Shown here in pieces: positions 23,862 to 35,497 of a stretch of 38,372 bases of DNA. Under the pieces are notes generated by a model. That model did not search any database and was not told where the DNA came from. It saw nothing but the letters and a program-made list of their open reading frames with translations. Position 1 is the first letter of the stretch. Every line of letters begins with the position of its first letter. A program made the position numbers and the translations under genes. The stretch comes from Halorubrum tebenquichense DSM 14210 (GTDB lineage Archaea; Halobacteriota; Halobacteria; Halobacteriales; Haloferacaceae): NCBI RefSeq assembly GCF_000337415.1, contig NZ_AOJD01000077.1:124583-162954 (forward strand), read 5' to 3'.

Positions 23862-23884
23862 AGATAGCGATGTTATCGACCGTC
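23854..23884 (+). pseudogene. E1-beta subunit, N-terminal stub
   Basis: Only ten codons (MTEDSDVIDR) remain before the second transposon begins. The overlap with E1-alpha and the order alpha-beta-lipoyl identify it as the beta subunit start. The rest of the gene is missing except for its C-terminus at 25326. Confidence 0.65.
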
Positions 23885-25184
23885 AGTGACCCACGACTGA
23901 AGTCGTGGGCTTGTCAGTGGACTCCCCCTCTACCGTCGAATCAACGGAGGCGTGGAACTCGCCGTTCAGGTTCAGCGTCCCTGACTTGAGCGCACACTGA
24001 CAGGGTGCGCCTCCACTCGAAGACGTTTGCCCCGAGTGGAGACGTTTCAGCAGTTTGCGAGCGATATTCTTGCTCGCGTTGTAGTCCGCGTTCAGTTCGT
24101 ACTCGCACTTCTGACAGACGAACTGGTGTTTCGACCGCCGATTGCCCTCGTGGGTAAACCCGCACGACGAACACCGCTGGGACGTGTACGCCGGACTCAC
24201 CCGCGCGACCTCGATACCGTCCATCTCGGCTTTGTACTCGACGTACTCGAACAAGCGGCGGAACGCCCACGCGTGGAATCGTTTTCCGCCTCCCATCCGC
24301 GTGCGAATATCAGTCAGGTTCTCGAACGCGATGTGCGTACACCCGTGGTTGCGGGCTTCGTCGAGAATCCGGTTCGATGCGCGGTGGAGTTCGTCCTGTA
24401 TCCAGCGGTGTTCGCGGTCGTTCATCGACTGAATCGACAGATGCGCCGACCGCGTCCTCGTCTGTTGCATCGACCCGCGCGTCTTCTCGAACTCCCGGCG
24501 TCGATGGTTCATCTCGTCGGCGTTCCCGATGAACGCGCCTGTCGAAGTCACTGCGAGCGACCCGTCCACGTTCAAATCGACCCCAAGGACTGTTCTGTGC
24601 TTGGCGTCGTCAGAAGTAGTCGTGAACTGGTCTTGCTTGTCCGTTGTTCGGCGCATCCGTGCGTGGAGGTAAAACGATGCTGTACTGCGATCGTACTGTA
24701 ACGTGGACATTCGAAACTCGTAGTCCTCGTTCAGCAGGTACTCGCCGATCGGTGTGTCTTCGGGATCGTCGGGGAGCACGTAATCGCACTCGACGCGACC
24801 GTTCACAGTCGACAGCGACACGTGGTCACGGTGGAACGTCGCAGAGCGTTTGTCATAGACAACGCTCCACGCGTCGAACTGCGGCTGACTCGTCTTCTCG
24901 CCCTTTTCGAGGCGGGCAACACCGCTTTTTGTGGCCTCGATAGCGCGTCGAATTCCTTTTTGGACGAGATTCGCAGTCAACTCCGTCTCGTCGCGGAGCC
25001 GGTCGTAGAGGGCGTTTTCGGCTTTCTGTTTCGAGGTCACGCAGTAGTCGTTCGGATGCCTCCACGCCCACTCTGAGGTGGTGTTCGCACAGTGGAGGAA
25101 CTGGTCTTTCGTCTGATGGAGGTCGTCGCACCGCTCTGTGGGAACGTTGAGTTTGACTTTGACCGTGCGAATCGCGTCCTCCAT
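23883..25184 (-). CDS. tnpB: TnpB (IS1341-type OrfB) with intact RuvC triad
   Basis: A 433-residue TnpB from the ATG at 25184 (MEDAIRTVKVKL); the frame is open six codons further. The catalytic residues are visible: Asp in VLGVDLNVDG, Glu in HIAFENLTDI and Asp in LNADYNASKNI, with zinc-ribbon CSSCG and CQKCE. It therefore looks able to act as an RNA-guided nuclease, unlike the TnpB at 21707. No tnpA accompanies it, so its mobility depends on a transposase in trans, perhaps that at 22864. The C-terminus reads into the right-end hairpin. Confidence 0.93.
   Translation of the reverse strand: MEDAIRTVKVKLNVPTERCDDLHQTKDQFLHCANTTSEWAWRHPNDYCVTSKQKAENALYDRLRDETELTANLVQKGIRRAIEATKSGVARLEKGEKTSQPQFDAWSVVYDKRSATFHRDHVSLSTVNGRVECDYVLPDDPEDTPIGEYLLNEDYEFRMSTLQYDRSTASFYLHARMRRTTDKQDQFTTTSDDAKHRTVLGVDLNVDGSLAVTSTGAFIGNADEMNHRRREFEKTRGSMQQTRTRSAHLSIQSMNDREHRWIQDELHRASNRILDEARNHGCTHIAFENLTDIRTRMGGGKRFHAWAFRRLFEYVEYKAEMDGIEVARVSPAYTSQRCSSCGFTHEGNRRSKHQFVCQKCEYELNADYNASKNIARKLLKRLHSGQTSSSGGAPCQCALKSGTLNLNGEFHASVDSTVEGESTDKPTTSVVGH
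23890..23909. repeat. Right-end hairpin of the tnpB-only element
   Basis: Perfect 9-bp stem with GA loop. It lies at the 3' end of tnpB, where the omega RNA scaffold would be transcribed; the guide would then come from E1-beta stub DNA outside the element. Confidence 0.8.
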
Positions 25185-25287
25185 CCGTACTTCACATATC
25201 AATAGATCTATTTATATATTTTAGGATTGGGATCGGGGAGTCAGGCGGCCATCGTTCGCGGACTGTATAGCATTTTGTCGGCTTCCT

Positions 25288-26888: not shown

Positions 26889-26970
26889 TTTACAGCGGCA
26901 ACGTGGGGTGAGGATCGTGCCAGTTAGAATGCTAGTTTGAGAAGACGTTTACAGCGGCACTCCGGGGTGA
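26889..26970 (+). repeat. Two ORB-like direct repeats
   Basis: TTTACAGCGGCA followed by four variable bases and GGGGTGA occurs at 26889-26911 and 26948-26970, 59 bases apart, same orientation, 19 of 23 positions identical. A TTTCCAGTGGAA-like block followed by a G-string is the form of haloarchaeal origin recognition boxes. No initiator gene specific for them is adjacent. Confidence 0.6.
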
Positions 26971-27208: not shown

Positions 27209-27250
27209 TTAACCAATAACTACGGTCGATAGATGTCGCATGTTGGTTAA
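27209..27250. repeat. Long-spaced inverted repeat, copy a
   Basis: TTAACCAA at 27209-27216 and TGTTGGTTAA at 27241-27250, spacer 24 bases. Exactly 17 bases after it begins TCGAACCCACACCCC and the first CTATCGATGTGT repeat. The same pattern with the same 17-base interval occurs at copy b. Confidence 0.7.
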
Positions 27251-27275
27251 AGCCAGCTCGGGTGGCCTCGAACCC

Positions 27276-27296
27276 ACACCCCTCTATCGATGTGTT
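27276..27296 (+). repeat. Origin-type repeat family 2, copy 1
   Basis: CACCCCTCTATCGATGTGT here is mirrored by an inverted copy at 27455-27475 and three direct copies at 30626-30727. The complementary strand ends in GGGGTGT like the Orc-linked repeats, so it may be another initiator-binding site. Confidence 0.75.
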
Positions 27297-27454
27297 CCAC
27301 AAATGCGCTGGCTGGCGAAGACAGGTTACGAGCCGCAGCCGTCTGGTATGAAATGGAGAAAACGGGAAGTATGTCGTCTGTTACCCATGATATCTCGATG
27401 TGAATACCACACAGATTCCCGTTGTCCTTCAAACACCAGAGATCGGTTGGCGCG

Positions 27455-27475
27455 AACACATCGATAGAGGGGTGT
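27455..27475 (-). repeat. Origin-type repeat family 2, inverted copy 2
   Basis: ACACATCGATAGAGGGGTGT, an exact inverted match to the copy at 27276, with about 158 bases between them. The pair encloses AT-richer DNA, as at origins with inverted ORBs. Confidence 0.75.
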
Positions 27476-27523
27476 GTCTCGACAACCTCATCGTGGTTAC
27501 ACATCGCACGAAGGCCGTCGAAT

Positions 27524-28147
27524 ATTCGACTCGAACACGAAGTCTACTACGGCTGGGTCGCGTTCGTTCCACAGCGCGAGAGCGACTCCGGCGCGTTGTC
27601 GAAGTACTTTGGGAGGGTCGCCGATGCCGACGAGTTCAAGCTCAGAGGTATCGAAGCCCGGCAGCGCTCAACCCCGCCGTTCATCGAAGACGTCCAGCAG
27701 GAGTGTCTCGAACGGCTCCACGCGACTCGATCGCCGGACGCCGTACTCGACTGTCTTCAAGACACCATCAAGCGCCATTTCGCTGGAACGGTGCCGGTTG
27801 AACAACTTGTCGAGCGGAATCGTGTCTCTAAGCCACTCGAAGGGTATACGCAGAACACCCAGAACGTGGCGGGAATAAAACGAGCCCGGGATCTGGACCT
27901 CGCTGTTCTTCCAGGACAGGACATTGAATACGTAGTCGTCGATGACGGGAAAACCTCGCGAGAACGGGTCGCCCTTGTTCATGAGGAGATCGAGGCCTAC
28001 GGCACCTCGTACTATGAGACACAACTTATCAGGGCTGTCGAGAGTGTACTGTGGCCGATGGGCTGTGATCGAACGGAGATTCGTCGAGAACTCACGGAGA
28101 CACGGGTCCCAAAGTTGACGGCGTACACGAACACGGAAGATTGTTAA
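27524..28147 (+). pseudogene. Family B DNA polymerase, C-terminal fragment
   Basis: About 207 codons with strong similarity in memory to the thumb/C-terminal region of haloarchaeal PolB-type polymerases: YYGWVAFVPQRESDSGALSKYF, then RGIEARQRSTPPFI, NRVSKPLEGYTQ and PGQDIEYVVVDD. Exonuclease and polymerase active-site regions are missing, and upstream the frame passes into origin repeats, so there is no true start. The protein cannot polymerise. A complete gene has evidently been replaced or cut at its 5' side by the origin repeat block. A downstream inverted repeat starts within its stop region. Confidence 0.8.
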
Positions 28148-28186
28148 CCAACAAAGGAGTCATCAGGAGCGGCTCTGTTGGTTAAC
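28144..28186. repeat. Long-spaced inverted repeat, copy b
   Basis: TTAACCAACA at 28144-28153 and TGTTGGTTAA at 28177-28186, spacer 23 bases. It directly follows the polymerase fragment, and 17 bases beyond it is TCGAACCCCCACACCCC, which leads into the inverted Orc repeat. Confidence 0.85.
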
Positions 28187-28203
28187 CACTGCCCCTCACG
28201 AGA

Positions 28204-28890
28204 TCGAACCCCCACACCCCGTGTGCGATATGAAATCGGGAAGATGGTGGGAGGGGGTAGCCAACGGGAAAGACCCCGAACCGCCGGAAATTCATGATTT
28301 TACGGAGGTAGAGCCTCAGAGACGGCAATATCACGAAAGGCTATATTTCATAGAAACCTTTAGATAGACACTCTGTCAACCATAGCCGCAATAAGGCTCA
28401 AGTCAGTCAAAACGAAACAGTATGTTTCGTGATATAATTGGACTCGTCCATAGCTTTGACCCTTCGTGAGATGGACGCCTCCGTTGGTTTGACGCCTTCT
28501 CGTGGACTCTCTCGCCATTTTCCAACTCTTCAGATGACTCGTCCTTACCTACCCTATCACCAAATTCATATCGCACACGGGGTGTGGGGGTAACCCACCG
28601 ACGAGATCAGACTCCACTCGAGATATTCAAGAGATCTTCTCGGCACATCTAGTCGAGAATACGTCTAGTAATTCATTTTGTACACGGGGAGTACCTCTGC
28701 CGAACATATCCGTCTCGCCTTGACATCGACAGGTGTTCGATGACCTGATCGATATTTCATATCGCACACGGGGGGTCACTACGTCTAATTGATTTCGCCC
28801 GCGGTTACAGTATTACTTCGCCTCCCCTTCGAGTAACCGCCTGTACTGTGAGAATTTAGCAAATTTAATCTCGCACACGGTCCCCATATT
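28204..28890. other. Replication origin region upstream of orc1/cdc6
   Basis: Five copies of an ORB-like repeat with core TCGCACACGGGGTGTG: one inverted at 28212-28236, then direct copies at 28564, 28671, 28754 and 28862 with decreasing match. The first two form a perfect inverted pair of about 26 bases that flanks some 330 bases, including an AT-rich stretch around 28318-28440 with ATATCACG and ATATAATTGG that could be the unwinding element. This layout next to an initiator gene is the standard haloarchaeal origin. No gene is seen between 28189 and 28920. Confidence 0.82.
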
Positions 28891-28920: not shown

Positions 28921-30267
28921 ATGGTTGACGGTGACGATCAACAGTCCCTCTCACAATCTATCAAAGGACGCCTCCAGGAGGGAGTTCAAAACTCGGTTTT
29001 CCGAGATAAGGGCCTTCTCGACCCGGATGCCGTCATCGACGAGGACCGAATCGTCGGTCGTGATGACCAGCTTGACGATATCATCACCTACCTACGACCG
29101 GCAGTACAGGGAAACCGCCCACCAAATATGCTTCTCTACGGCCCATCCGGGACGGGGAAGTCGCTCATTATCAACGCGGTCTGTCAGCAGGTTCTCGAAC
29201 TCGCGAACGCCCAAGACGACCGTTTTGGGGTTATTAAAATCAACTGTCAGACAATCAAATCGCACGATAGGGCCGTCTATCGACTTGTGGAAAACGCCGC
29301 AACTGAAGCAGACGTTGAAGTTGGAGTTCCACAGAGTGGTGTCTCGACAGACCAGAAACTCAACCGGTTCTATGAGATCCTGAGCAACAACTTCGACTCG
29401 GTCATCATCATCCTGGATGAGGTTGACCTCTTGGTAGGGCGACAGCGGGACCCGAACGATGAGCCAGCATACTCCAAGTTGCTCTATCAGCTCTCTCGGG
29501 CATCACAGCTCGGCCAGATCGAGGGGCACGTTTCTGTTGCAGCGCTCACAAACGATCCCCGGTTCATGGAGAACCTCGACGGTCGGGCAGAGAGCTCGTT
29601 CAATCCGCAGGATGTCGTCTTTTCAGACTATGATGCGGACCAACTACAGTCTATTCTGAAACGACGTCGTGACGCATATCGGGACGGTGTCCTTGAGGAC
29701 GGGATCATTCCACTTAGCTCCGCATTTGCGGCACAGGACCACGGTGACGCCCGGAAAGCGATCGATCTGTTTCGGAAAGCAGGCGAGATTGCAGACCGTG
29801 AAGGCGAAGAGATGGTTCATGAAGGGCACGTTCGTGATGCCCAGAAAGAAGCCGAACGGGATCGAACGCTGACTCAGATGCAAGGGTTGTCGACCCAAAA
29901 GAAACTCTCGCTTTACGCTACTGCGATTGTCCCCGTCTACTCACAACGCAATCTGAACGCTGTTCCCAGTACGGTTGCATATCGTGTGTATCAGTACCTT
30001 ACTGACTTACTTGACGCTGATACAAAATCGCGCGACTCCTACCTCCGGTATATGAGTGAAGCGGAGACATACAACTTTGTCACATCAGAAAAACGTGGAC
30101 GCGGCTACGGCAGCGGTGTTCACAAGGAGTACACGTTTGTTGATGATCCGGGTGTGGTTGCTGAAACTCTTCGAGCTGACATCCGGATTGAAGAGGCAGA
30201 CAATGAAGGCGATCTAATCAAATCTGTTGTCAACGCACAAATAGATGATTTCTTCGAAGGAAAGTAG
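28921..30267 (+). CDS. orc: Orc1/Cdc6 replication initiator
   Basis: A 448-residue AAA+ initiator. Walker A is GPSGTGKS at residues 74-81, Walker B is VIIILDEVD at 161-169, sensor-like AALTNDPRFMENLDGR follows, and the C-terminal winged helix covers about residues 340-430. It would bind the flanking ORB-like repeats and load the replicative helicase. Repeats lie on both sides of the gene and the last upstream one is only 35 bases from the ATG, so binding may also repress its own promoter. TATTTATAG just before the start could be the TATA box of a nearly leaderless transcript. Confidence 0.96.
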   Translation: MVDGDDQQSLSQSIKGRLQEGVQNSVFRDKGLLDPDAVIDEDRIVGRDDQLDDIITYLRPAVQGNRPPNMLLYGPSGTGKSLIINAVCQQVLELANAQDDRFGVIKINCQTIKSHDRAVYRLVENAATEADVEVGVPQSGVSTDQKLNRFYEILSNNFDSVIIILDEVDLLVGRQRDPNDEPAYSKLLYQLSRASQLGQIEGHVSVAALTNDPRFMENLDGRAESSFNPQDVVFSDYDADQLQSILKRRRDAYRDGVLEDGIIPLSSAFAAQDHGDARKAIDLFRKAGEIADREGEEMVHEGHVRDAQKEAERDRTLTQMQGLSTQKKLSLYATAIVPVYSQRNLNAVPSTVAYRVYQYLTDLLDADTKSRDSYLRYMSEAETYNFVTSEKRGRGYGSGVHKEYTFVDDPGVVAETLRADIRIEEADNEGDLIKSVVNAQIDDFFEGK

Positions 30268-30295: not shown

Positions 30296-30512
30296 ATTCA
30301 TTTCGCACACGGGGTGTGATGTCGTTAGAACATATGTTAATATTGGTAAATATGTCTGACAACCGTATACACGATTTCATTTCGCACACGGGGTGTCTCC
30401 GCTTGATTCGTCAACTGATTCATTTCTCATACGGGGTGCGTCCTGAATCAGCGTAAAATCATCTCGCACACGGGGGGTACTATTACAGATTTCATTTCGC
30501 ACACGGGGTGTG
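30296..30512 (+). repeat. Five ORB-like repeats downstream of orc1/cdc6
   Basis: Direct copies of the core TTTCGCACACGGGGTGTG start at 30296, 30374, 30418, 30457 and 30489, with variants TTTCTCATACGGGGTGCG and CTCGCACACGGGGGGT. They have the same orientation as the upstream copies and share the leading ATTTCAT or ATTCAT. Confidence 0.85.
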
Positions 30513-30625: not shown

Positions 30626-30727
30626 ACACCCCTCTATCGATGTGTTTTGAAAAGCCCGCTTGAATACACCCCTCTATCGAAGTGTTCACAGTAGCAGTCA
30701 CTGTACACACCCCTCTATCGAAGTGTA
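30626..30727 (+). repeat. Three direct copies of origin-type repeat family 2
   Basis: CACCCCTCTATCGATGTGT at 30626-30646 and CACCCCTCTATCGAAGTGT at 30666-30686 and 30707-30727. The spacing is about 40 bases, roughly four helical turns, so bound proteins would lie on one face of DNA. Confidence 0.85.
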
Positions 30728-30773
30728 GAAGCAGGTGGTGGTTATCCCTAGTATCGACGCCGACTCTCAGTAC

Positions 30774-31097
30774 CTACTCATCCGCGTTGACCGGTCCTTT
30801 GTACTTGGACTTCACTGAGTTTCCTTCCCGCCACTGCCAGTAGTAGTAGCGGTTGTCGTTGATTTCCTTGATCGTGATCGTCGCCTTCGCTGGGACATCG
30901 TCCGGAAGGTCATCGGGTCGTTCCTCGACGTCGGAATCATCCTGCTCCGCTTCGATATCCGCTTCCAGCTCTTTGTGTTCGGCTAACGCCTCGCCATACC
31001 GAGCAACGTCCCGAAGCTGCGCTGGTGTGGCTTCGTTGAGGGCGTCGACGACCTCTGCCGGGAGGGTTGCTGGTGGGATCGGTGGTTCGTCGGACAT
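30774..31097 (-). CDS. Plasmid protein resembling DUF6788
   Basis: A 107-residue protein. The C-terminal ITIKEINDNRYYYWQWREGN and KSKYKGPV pattern resembles the DUF6788-type domain often found in archaeal mobile DNA; the middle is strongly acidic. Function is unknown. It is divergent from the gene at 31154, with the inverted repeat copy c between their starts. Confidence 0.65.
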   Translation of the reverse strand: MSDEPPIPPATLPAEVVDALNEATPAQLRDVARYGEALAEHKELEADIEAEQDDSDVEERPDDLPDDVPAKATITIKEINDNRYYYWQWREGNSVKSKYKGPVNADE

Positions 31098-31111: not shown

Positions 31112-31152
31112 TTAACCAACACAGTCTGCTACTCCATAATTTTGTTGGTTAA
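31112..31152. promoter_or_regulatory. Long-spaced inverted repeat, copy c, in a divergent promoter
   Basis: TTAACCAACA at 31112-31121 and TGTTGGTTAA at 31143-31152, spacer 21. The left arm is 15 bases from the start of the minus-strand gene and the right arm touches the ATG of the plus-strand gene, which is what an operator for both would look like. Confidence 0.75.
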
Positions 31153-31153
31153 G

Positions 31154-31306
31154 ATGGTGTTACAGCGAACGAGCCTCCACGTTGACATCGACGAGGAGGA
31201 CCTCCGAGCGCAGGCAGCGAAGTACGGGATCGACGACGTGATCGACGCGCTACTCCAGTCCCTCGAGACGCACGGGGAGGTCGGGGATGACCGGCTCTCG
31301 GAGTGA
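31154..31306 (+). CDS. 50-residue plasmid protein
   Basis: A short frame starting at the ATG two bases after the inverted repeat: MVLQRTSLHVDIDEEDLRAQ, then AAKYGIDDVIDALLQSLETH. It has a helix-rich composition with a start like ribbon-helix-helix proteins (beta strand then helix), but the match is weak. Function is not assigned. A longer frame starting in the repeat region is rejected. Confidence 0.5.
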   Translation: MVLQRTSLHVDIDEEDLRAQAAKYGIDDVIDALLQSLETHGEVGDDRLSE

Positions 31307-33276: not shown

Positions 33277-34098
33277 TCATTTTGAAACCGTTGGGAGGCG
33301 ACCGTCTGGTCGGGGCACACGGCCTCGTTTGATCTCGTGATCGACGTGACGCAGGTGCTTACAGCCGCCTTCGGGTGAACGCTGCTGCCAGTCCGGGCAG
33401 GTACACGCCTCTTCGGCGACGTCGACTTCGTACCGATTACCGGACGCGGACTGGACCTCGTAGCGACCACCTTTGGAGAGGAGCGAGACGTCCATCGATT
33501 CGGTGACGGCGCGCTTCGTGCGAGGCTCAAGTTCGTCCTGTGACTGTGCGGTATCGTCGACGACCAGCCGATCGCGTACGTCGCCCGTTCGGCCACCATC
33601 CGGAGCGACAGCTTCCGCAGGGCCACTGAGGCGCTCGTGAAGTAGTTCTTCTACCGGATGCCCTTCTGGCCACAGGTAGTGTACCTCACGGCGCTCACGA
33701 TGGTCGTAGGAGCCGCACGCGGCTGCGCTCCCTATCCAGACGCGCCAAGCACCCAGCGCAGCCATCACGTCGACGATGATACGGGGAACCGTCTGGTGGT
33801 CGTCCGGGAAGAACACCCGGAAACGCGTACACGCCTCTTGGGGCGGGACAGTTTCCCACCAGTCTTCGCTGGAGCCCCAACTGTCGAACATCGCCTCGTC
33901 GGTGCCGTAGCCCACCGTGATGCCGTCGATCGGCGTCCAGCCCGTCGGGATGTGGTCTGCCTGCCCCTCGAGTATCCTGAGGACGGCGTAACGAAGGTAC
34001 TCGTGGGTTTGGTTGTCCGTCGTTCGGGCCACCTTGTCGTGCTGCTCGGCAACGTGCTCGGCTTCCTCGAGGACCGTTGTGAGATAGTCGTCAGTCAT
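33277..34098 (-). CDS. SWIM zinc-finger domain protein
   Basis: A 273-residue protein whose C-terminal part contains EEACTCPDWQQRSPEGGCKH, the CxC...CxH SWIM pattern, near residues 232-251. SWIM domains bind DNA or proteins. The N-terminal 190 residues resemble other haloarchaeal plasmid proteins but no motif was recognised. It is located on an apparent plasmid accessory strip with the ArdC-like gene. Confidence 0.75.
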   Translation of the reverse strand: MTDDYLTTVLEEAEHVAEQHDKVARTTDNQTHEYLRYAVLRILEGQADHIPTGWTPIDGITVGYGTDEAMFDSWGSSEDWWETVPPQEACTRFRVFFPDDHQTVPRIIVDVMAALGAWRVWIGSAAACGSYDHRERREVHYLWPEGHPVEELLHERLSGPAEAVAPDGGRTGDVRDRLVVDDTAQSQDELEPRTKRAVTESMDVSLLSKGGRYEVQSASGNRYEVDVAEEACTCPDWQQRSPEGGCKHLRHVDHEIKRGRVPRPDGRLPTVSK

Positions 34099-34148: not shown

Positions 34149-34189
34149 TTAACCAACGAAAGAGGAGAAATCCGGCATCTGTTGGTTAA
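34149..34189. repeat. Long-spaced inverted repeat, copy d
   Basis: TTAACCAACG at 34149-34158 and TGTTGGTTAA at 34180-34189, spacer 21. It lies between two same-strand genes, upstream of the SWIM gene and just past the stop of the ArdC-like gene. This place would suit an operator or a terminator. Confidence 0.75.
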
Positions 34190-34194
34190 CTGAT

Positions 34195-34977
34195 TTAGCG
34201 AGCAAGCCGCTCTTCGAGCACGTCGATGAGCTCCTCTGCCGTCCGACTGATCCGACCGAGCCGCTCGCGAACGACCTCGGGGTCGTCCGACTCCCAGGCT
34301 GCGAGGTAGAACGCCGAGCCGCTGGTGTCGAGGCCGCAGTACCGCCCAACGACGTATGCGACGGCTTCGGCCTCGACTTCGCGTTTCGACCGTTCCGTAT
34401 CGTCGTCGACGTCGAAGTGGAGCAGAGCGTGCGCGTACTCGTGAACCAGTGTCCGAGCGAGATCGGCGTCGTTCTCGCGATCTCGAACCTCAACACGCGG
34501 CTGCATGTCGATGAGACTGAGCTGCTCGCAGATTCCTTTCGCCTCGCCGTGCGTCCACTCGTTGGCTGGAATGATCCGGACCGTCACGCCGAGGTCATCA
34601 GCGGCGGCAGTCAACTGTTCGACGAGGTCGCCGGCGTCGCCGGTCGCTTCCGTATCCAGATCGGGGAGCGGCTCGCCCTCGGTCTGGGAGATGTCGAACA
34701 CCGGCGCGGGCTTGAATCCGACGAGCCCCTCCGACCACTCCTCAGGTGGCGTCTCGTCGTACCCACAGTCACTGTCCTCGTGGTAGTTCGGCGAGTTCTC
34801 GCATTCCGGGCATTGCTTCGTGATGATCGGTGCCCAGATCCAGATGGCTGACTCGCCCTCTTGGACGTGCGGGTCCGCGCCGACGAGACGGTCGAACACC
34901 GTCTTTCCGGTGGCTAACGCGTCATCATGGGTCGATGCCTCTACCAGTGCGGAAATCACCATATGTATCTCGAACAC
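34195..34977 (-). CDS. Chimeric protein with ArdC-type zincin metallopeptidase domain
   Basis: From GTG at 34977 the protein is 260 residues. The C-terminal two thirds match the zincin part of ArdC antirestriction proteins: HVQEGESAIWIWAPI, a cysteine pair in KQCPECENSPNYHED, VFDISQTEGEPLP, then the active site HEYAHALLH with a downstream ligand-like EAEAVAYVVG. The N-terminal 36 residues (FEIHMVISALVEASTHDDAL...FDRLVGADP) resemble a different plasmid protein family, and the usual ArdC ssDNA-binding N-domain is missing. This suggests an in-frame fusion by deletion. A longer open frame to 35091 has a non-protein-like start. Confidence 0.72.
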   Translation of the reverse strand: MFEIHMVISALVEASTHDDALATGKTVFDRLVGADPHVQEGESAIWIWAPIITKQCPECENSPNYHEDSDCGYDETPPEEWSEGLVGFKPAPVFDISQTEGEPLPDLDTEATGDAGDLVEQLTAAADDLGVTVRIIPANEWTHGEAKGICEQLSLIDMQPRVEVRDRENDADLARTLVHEYAHALLHFDVDDDTERSKREVEAEAVAYVVGRYCGLDTSGSAFYLAAWESDDPEVVRERLGRISRTAEELIDVLEERLAR

Positions 34978-35074
34978 GTCGAAACGCCGACGCACCCGGT
35001 GTCGTTGCTCGCTCGCTCCTACTGCGCCGGCACCCATCGCCGGCGCTCGAAAAACCTGCTTTGGGAGATTGCGT

Positions 35075-35497
35075 TCAGGAGTCGGCCGCACGCTTGACGG
35101 TGATGGTCAGATCCCCGGACTCATAGTCCGCTTCGAAGTCGGCGACGTACGCATCTGAATCGTAGGCGACGTGGTAGGCGCGGTGACGCTCGAGGGATCC
35201 GGTCGCCTTGTAGTGGAAGAATGCGGCCGCCGTGTAGGGCTTGCTCAGTATCTCTATTTGTGTCTCAACCGATGCCGGAAGCGCGATCTGTGGTGTGTCA
35301 GTGTCGATGCTCGCCGCGAACTCTTTGGCCTCCTCGACAGTCGCTTGCGAATGTACAGGTGTTGCGCCAGTGAGCACGTTCACCGGAGTTTCGGTCTTGT
35401 CGGTGAACAGGGCGTCTTCGAAGGTATGCGTCCCGAGGATCGCATCGGGAGCTAACTCGCAATCGTCGAAGGGATTGTCAGTTGTTTCATCGGCCAT
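35075..35497 (-). CDS. Plasmid hypothetical protein
   Basis: A 140-residue acidic soluble protein with CELAPDAILGTHTFEDALFT, then ALPASVETQIEILSKPYTAA and LERHRAYHVAYDSDAYVADF. No motif of known function. It has the same strand as the ArdC-like chimera, with about 100 bases between, and probably belongs to the same plasmid accessory set. Confidence 0.6.
   Translation of the reverse strand: MADETTDNPFDDCELAPDAILGTHTFEDALFTDKTETPVNVLTGATPVHSQATVEEAKEFAASIDTDTPQIALPASVETQIEILSKPYTAAAFFHYKATGSLERHRAYHVAYDSDAYVADFEADYESGDLTITVKRAADS

Follow-up and report, generated by a model that had tools for sequence, protein, structure and literature searches.

A strict interrupted palindrome, TTAACCAACR-N20..24-YGTTGGTTAA, recurs on haloarchaeal plasmids and proviruses, where it lies between genes regardless of their orientation and, at one gene junction, marks an insertion hot spot that includes cassettes bounded by two sites. 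The palindrome was identified in a 38,372-nt stretch of Halorubrum tebenquichense DSM 14210 (the window; GCF_000337415.1, NZ_AOJD01000077.1, positions 124,583–162,954 of the forward strand). The site is undescribed within the literature searched, and a text search for the arm sequences returned no relevant paper among those listed. As our leading explanation we tentatively favour a module-junction site that is bound by a putative protein and used for module insertion, in a manner reminiscent of pdif sites although it is neither dif nor attC.

An interrupted palindrome between genes

The sequence TGTTGGTTAA is the right arm of the palindrome, whose total length is 39–44 bp, mostly 41–42 bp. The window contains four copies (starting at 27209, 28144, 31112 and 34149), with TGTTGGTTAA at 27241–27250, 28176–28185, 31143–31152 and 34180–34189, against none in shuffled versions. 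Throughout the fetched loci, 2.4 Mb in total, the 9-bp arm is nearly never unpaired, its partner lying 22–26 bases away (23–24 bases in 85 % of cases). Perfect sites number 323 versus 29 with one or two mismatches, a strictness that is somewhat overstated because the loci were partly picked by perfect sites; shuffled sequence yielded no site with fewer than three mismatches. The half-sites are constant, with A or G as the tenth base, while the core and flanks are almost information-free, and pairing at mirrored core positions was at chance level; approximately 335 distinct sites were studied in all. The half-site centres lie roughly 32 bp, or three helical turns, apart, a distance that would suit simultaneous binding of the two half-sites by a single protein complex. 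The palindrome is probably a site bound by a putative protein through two inverted 10-bp half-sites, YGTTGGTTAA, with the core irrelevant. A separate arrangement was seen in L121 (9511–11210), where five near-copies of the palindrome, of the CTAACCAACA...TGTTGGTTAG type, cluster in a 2.6-kb gap with an adjoining winged-helix gene.

The genome to which the window belongs has six copies. Among the 392 Halobacteriales genomes surveyed, 256 contained the palindrome, at up to 33 copies per genome, and the reversed-pattern control returned zero in nearly all. A scan of the genomes of approximately 85,000 species gave, among the matches listed, exclusively haloarchaeal hits apart from one bacterial MAG contig; the palindrome is almost restricted to Haloarchaea, and there mainly to plasmids and proviruses. 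Plasmids tend to carry several copies (seven in Halobacterium salinarum pNRC200), and it is found on many contigs of haloarchaeal viruses and proviruses, mostly as one copy each; the proviral copies are not located at provirus contig ends. Three contigs (L016, L018 and L017, from G181, G161 and G114) display seemingly identical site pairs with identical flanks. An attL/attR reading of these pairs was rejected, as in two genomes the flanks agree over kilobases at 99.9 %, and in the third the paired flanks are identical; the pairs most likely reflect circular contigs whose ends were duplicated during assembly.

Placement was assessed for 326 distinct sites using a simple codon-model gene caller, checked against two annotated plasmids, which gives approximate start positions. 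Nearly all sites (319/326, 98 %) are intergenic, and their neighbouring genes are tandem, divergent and convergent in 61, 21 and 18 % of cases, versus 63, 22 and 16 % in control gaps. The zone 20–40 bp upstream of gene starts is avoided, stop codons are crowded by sites, and the distinct sites showed neither promoter nor 3′-end bias. Taken together, the control-like orientations, the avoided promoter zone and the crowding at stop codons do not match what a general operator or terminator would show.

Insertions at the ArdC–SWIM junction

Palindrome copy 4 (34149–34189) is positioned between a SWIM-like gene (33277–34098) and an ArdC/ImmA-like gene (34195–35091), and represents the empty state of an insertion hot spot. 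All 30 fetched loci that match across such an empty junction carry the site, 26 of them in perfect form. At least seven different inserts occupy this junction in other plasmids. Some of them lie between two sites (AbiEi–AbiEii; AbiEi together with two further genes; a nucleotidyltransferase alongside an HTH protein), others are accompanied by one site (a membrane protein of 253 aa, an HNH protein of 433 aa and a membrane protein of 347 aa) and one, a small insert, has no site. Among the matches listed, the site junction was broken in 42 of 94 ArdC-bearing places (45 %), compared with 27 of 148 (18 %) for the adjacent backbone junction, where no site is present (Fisher p 2e-5, which serves as a guide only, as the places share ancestry, the lists are limited to 150 matches and a single pair of junctions is compared). 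In the SWIM-only matches listed, homology stops at the site edge or arm end in 23/23. Segments between adjacent sites also reappear in unrelated contexts (22 pairs). Cassettes bounded by two sites were found at the ArdC–SWIM junction and one other locus; one-site inserts are common too, and two-site insertions are roughly matched in frequency by those with a single bounding site or none. In L310–L315, L318 and L319, the inserts on the SWIM side of the hot spot lack a site there and open with sequences that are partly related (TTCCAGTAGCTG-like) and may represent the terminus of a different mobile element.

The hot-spot result at this junction stands, and a dedicated recombination system may use the site. 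A putative protein would bind the paired half-sites on haloarchaeal plasmids and proviruses, the sites would mark gene-module junctions at which accessory genes, notably toxin–antitoxin and abortive-infection genes, are inserted or exchanged, and a recombinase or accessory complex would most likely use the site for module insertion. It is possible, and we say so with greater reserve, that haloarchaeal plasmids and proviruses share a cassette-exchange system of their own, comprising a 41-bp paired site with a free core and a putative serving protein, by which defence and toxin–antitoxin modules would enter and leave plasmid backbones.

Over all sites, one-sided homology showed no excess relative to ordinary intergenic junctions at matched identity above 80 %; an excess was seen at 60–80 % identity, which a few large gene families may cause. 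A general recombination hot spot, as a reading of one-sided homology, was rejected for this lack of excess over controls at matched identity. Mapping of crossovers within the core revealed no consistent crossover point, and the variable sequence and length of the core are a poor fit to core strand exchange by a tyrosine recombinase. General tyrosine integrases showed no clear enrichment near sites (27 % versus 21 % within 300 bp).

Known integron sites offer one comparison. The attC consensus is RYYYAAC/GTTRRRY, and the palindrome arms miss it by one base each. Like the palindrome, integron attC sites, including those of archaeal integrons, have inverted AAC...GTT arms by stop codons and a variable middle, and they are associated with accessory-gene cassettes (PMC9668308). 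An attC site, however, folds into a hairpin with paired L boxes inside its R boxes, whereas mirrored positions in the palindrome core pair at chance level, and attC cassettes form same-strand arrays, whereas gene orientations flanking the palindrome are mixed as in control gaps; we therefore rejected this assignment. A likeness is also found in the pdif sites of Acinetobacter plasmids, which are short palindromic intermodule sites acted on by XerC/XerD, present many times per plasmid and bounding cassettes of 0.7–2.7 kb that include toxin–antitoxin pairs (PMC6449649, PMC13141974). The haloarchaeal palindrome is likewise short, located between plasmid modules, present in several copies per plasmid and in some cases bounds a cassette from both sides, although inserts with one site are also common. 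Nevertheless, dif and pdif sites consist of two 11-bp arms around a 6-bp centre, 28 bp in all (PMC8371274, PMC6449649), whereas the palindrome is haloarchaeal and has 10-bp arms, a free core of 20–24 bp and a length of 39–44 bp; by its arm and centre architecture it is not a Xer site. Archaeal dif, which occurs once per chromosome and has 11-nt arms separated by a 6-nt spacer (PMC8371274), resembles it in having inverted arms around a centre.

The rival that survives best, which we regard as unlikely though it accounts for several observations, is a parS-like segregation or architecture site served by a ParB-, SMC- or condensin-type protein on extrachromosomal replicons, with junctions tolerating such sites and, being permissive, collecting inserts. 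The copy numbers (mostly exactly one on proviral contigs, several on plasmids), the orientation-neutral placement away from promoters, the strictness of a palindrome with a free core and the one-sided homology at control level are all consistent with this explanation. However, ParA genes lie near sites in only 1 of 15 members, and single copies within multi-copy plasmids barely decay even though redundancy would permit it. A segregation role also sits poorly with a site junction that is broken more often than its neighbour, an observation consistent with module insertion.

Neighbouring genes and possible regulation

Several gene families hold the site at a fixed place. In the window, palindrome copy 3 (31112–31152) lies 14 bp upstream of the gene for a small protein, hyp107 (30774–31097, minus strand), and next to the C-terminal remnant of a MarR-type regulator of the HVO_2833_C family (31154–31306, plus strand; the last ~50 codons). 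Approximately 0.8 kb that is found in ten relatives is absent from this MarR gene, the loss starting at the outer edge of the palindrome copy. In the hyp107 family the site has a fixed position in 39/40 members, mostly 14 bp upstream; the SWIM-like family has it in 12/12, mostly 50 bp upstream, and a 296-aa protein family in 9/9, directly past the stop codon. The distance from the gene start is ~70 bp for DUF6610 and ~83 bp for MarR. Matches to the hyp107 family were detected in 289 of 392 genomes at an E value of 1e-6. The hyp107 model, of low confidence (pTM 0.42), predicts N-terminal helices and a three-stranded sheet; it returned no structural match at an E value of 0.001, and the protein gave no family match at threshold. 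As an obligatory partner of the site, hyp107 was rejected because several genomes carry sites without it.

The fixed start distances could point to an operator at which a widespread regulator, encoded by plasmid or host, controls neighbouring genes via the paired half-sites, as could the two-winged-helix regulator that, in many plasmids, is divergent from hyp107 with the site in between. We nonetheless consider a regulatory role improbable: the distances vary among families, hyp107 is missing from several site-bearing genomes, 18 % of sites lie between convergent genes in keeping with the control gaps, and the core-promoter zone is avoided. Outside the hyp107 family, the sites lack the bias towards gene starts and promoters that a transcription operator should display.

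Palindromes and origin repeats in the window

The preliminary description interpreted the arm as part of an origin module that was duplicated with swapped specificity of the origin recognition box (ORB), the arms at 27241 and 28177 each being followed after exactly 17 bases by TCGAACC. The arm at 27241 was confirmed; the second has the described sequence and begins at 28176, and the spacing holds for module 1 (TCGAACC at 27268, 17 bases) but is 18 bases in module 2 (28204). In both frames CACACCCC leads into an inverted ORB, and, as described, the same arm stands beside inverted ORBs of two families that differ in specificity, with a polymerase fragment between them. The match is not accidental, as the window contains TTGGTTAA-N15-20-TCGAACCC twice and none of 100 shuffles contains it. 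CGAACCC/CACACCCC corresponds to the end of an ORB that points outward and bears the G-string; hence, the shared frame amounts to the palindrome adjoining an ORB, twice.

In module 1, palindrome copy 1 (27209–27250; TTAACCAATAA...TGTTGGTTAA, with one mismatch in the left arm) precedes a family B ORB (27276–27297, minus strand, outward end CGAACCCACACCCC) whose inverted partner (27454–27475, plus strand) is 100 % complementary to it. A C-terminal fragment of a type-B DNA polymerase (27517–28147, plus strand; ~200 aa of ~720 aa) follows, and its stop codon lies within palindrome copy 2 (28144–28185), the arm of module 2. An ORB of family A (28214–28235, minus strand) stands 18–20 bp from this copy, with its inverted partner at 28564–28585, the first of three further ORB-A copies on the plus strand (28564, 28671 and 28755; 28564–28776); these are followed by an orc1/cdc6 initiator gene of 448 aa (28921–30267, plus strand), downstream of which are five further ORB-A copies (30296–30511, plus strand). 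Three ORB-B copies (30626–30728, minus strand) complete this side, and no closely matching Orc for them was found in the same genome. Two ORB-like repeats of family C (26889 and 26948; 26889–26970, plus strand) match repeats beside the Orc of L150. Three ORB families are thus present in the origin region, and the window encodes an initiator for family A only; ORB-B belongs to the L193 Orc, and ORB-C to the L150 Orc. Compared with the L193 Orc, the best matches that the genome under study contains show 52 % identity (the Orc of the window) and 45 %, and the flanks of the latter carry ORB-A-like boxes. A TnpB-like gene (Cas12f1-like TNB domain) lies close to the origin region at 23883–25202, and ARAGORN and Rfam searches of the window returned no tRNA or RNA element.

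When the frame was sought in other haloarchaeal plasmids, module 2 recurred and module 1 did not. The order of PolB end, palindrome, 18–20 bp, ORB-A and orc1/cdc6 is conserved in plasmids of several genera, and the layout was seen in six other plasmid loci (L113, L114, L115, L116 with a degenerate site, L145 and L156). Among the loci searched, module 1 occurred in this window only, and PolB starts in relatives have flanks unrelated to it, giving no evidence that either module was copied from the other. Nor does the arm behave as an origin element, as GAACCC lies within 45 bp at just ~20 of the ~335 distinct sites and the majority are distant from any ORB; within the window, copies 3 and 4 have no adjoining ORB. 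Despite the two matched frames and the recurrence of module 2, a duplicated origin module is thus very improbable, given the few sites with an ORB end close by, the solitary module 1 and spacings that differ by one base. ORB-A of module 2 and ORB-B of module 1 are haloarchaeal ORBs with the halophile G-string (PMC3528665, PMC3936714), whereas the palindrome lacks a G-string and is mostly away from origins. It was rejected as an origin recognition box itself, as its arms are constant beside different Orc families, here ORB-A and ORB-B. The two frames are better explained by a general palindrome that stands next to two different ORBs, and the window is a mosaic of origin relics beside this general site. 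One copy ends the polymerase gene and one precedes a relic origin segment, so the earlier finding corresponds to two different origins next to a general site; read as an origin duplication, it is ordinary plasmid mosaicism.

A strict site that two thirds of the sampled haloarchaeal genomes contain, on plasmids and proviruses, and for which the literature searched offers no match, points to an unstudied protein common to them. If the palindrome is a segregation site, it would still be a general cis element of haloarchaeal plasmid and provirus replicons. If it serves module exchange, the acquisition and loss of defence genes and origins by haloarchaeal megaplasmids would be accounted for.
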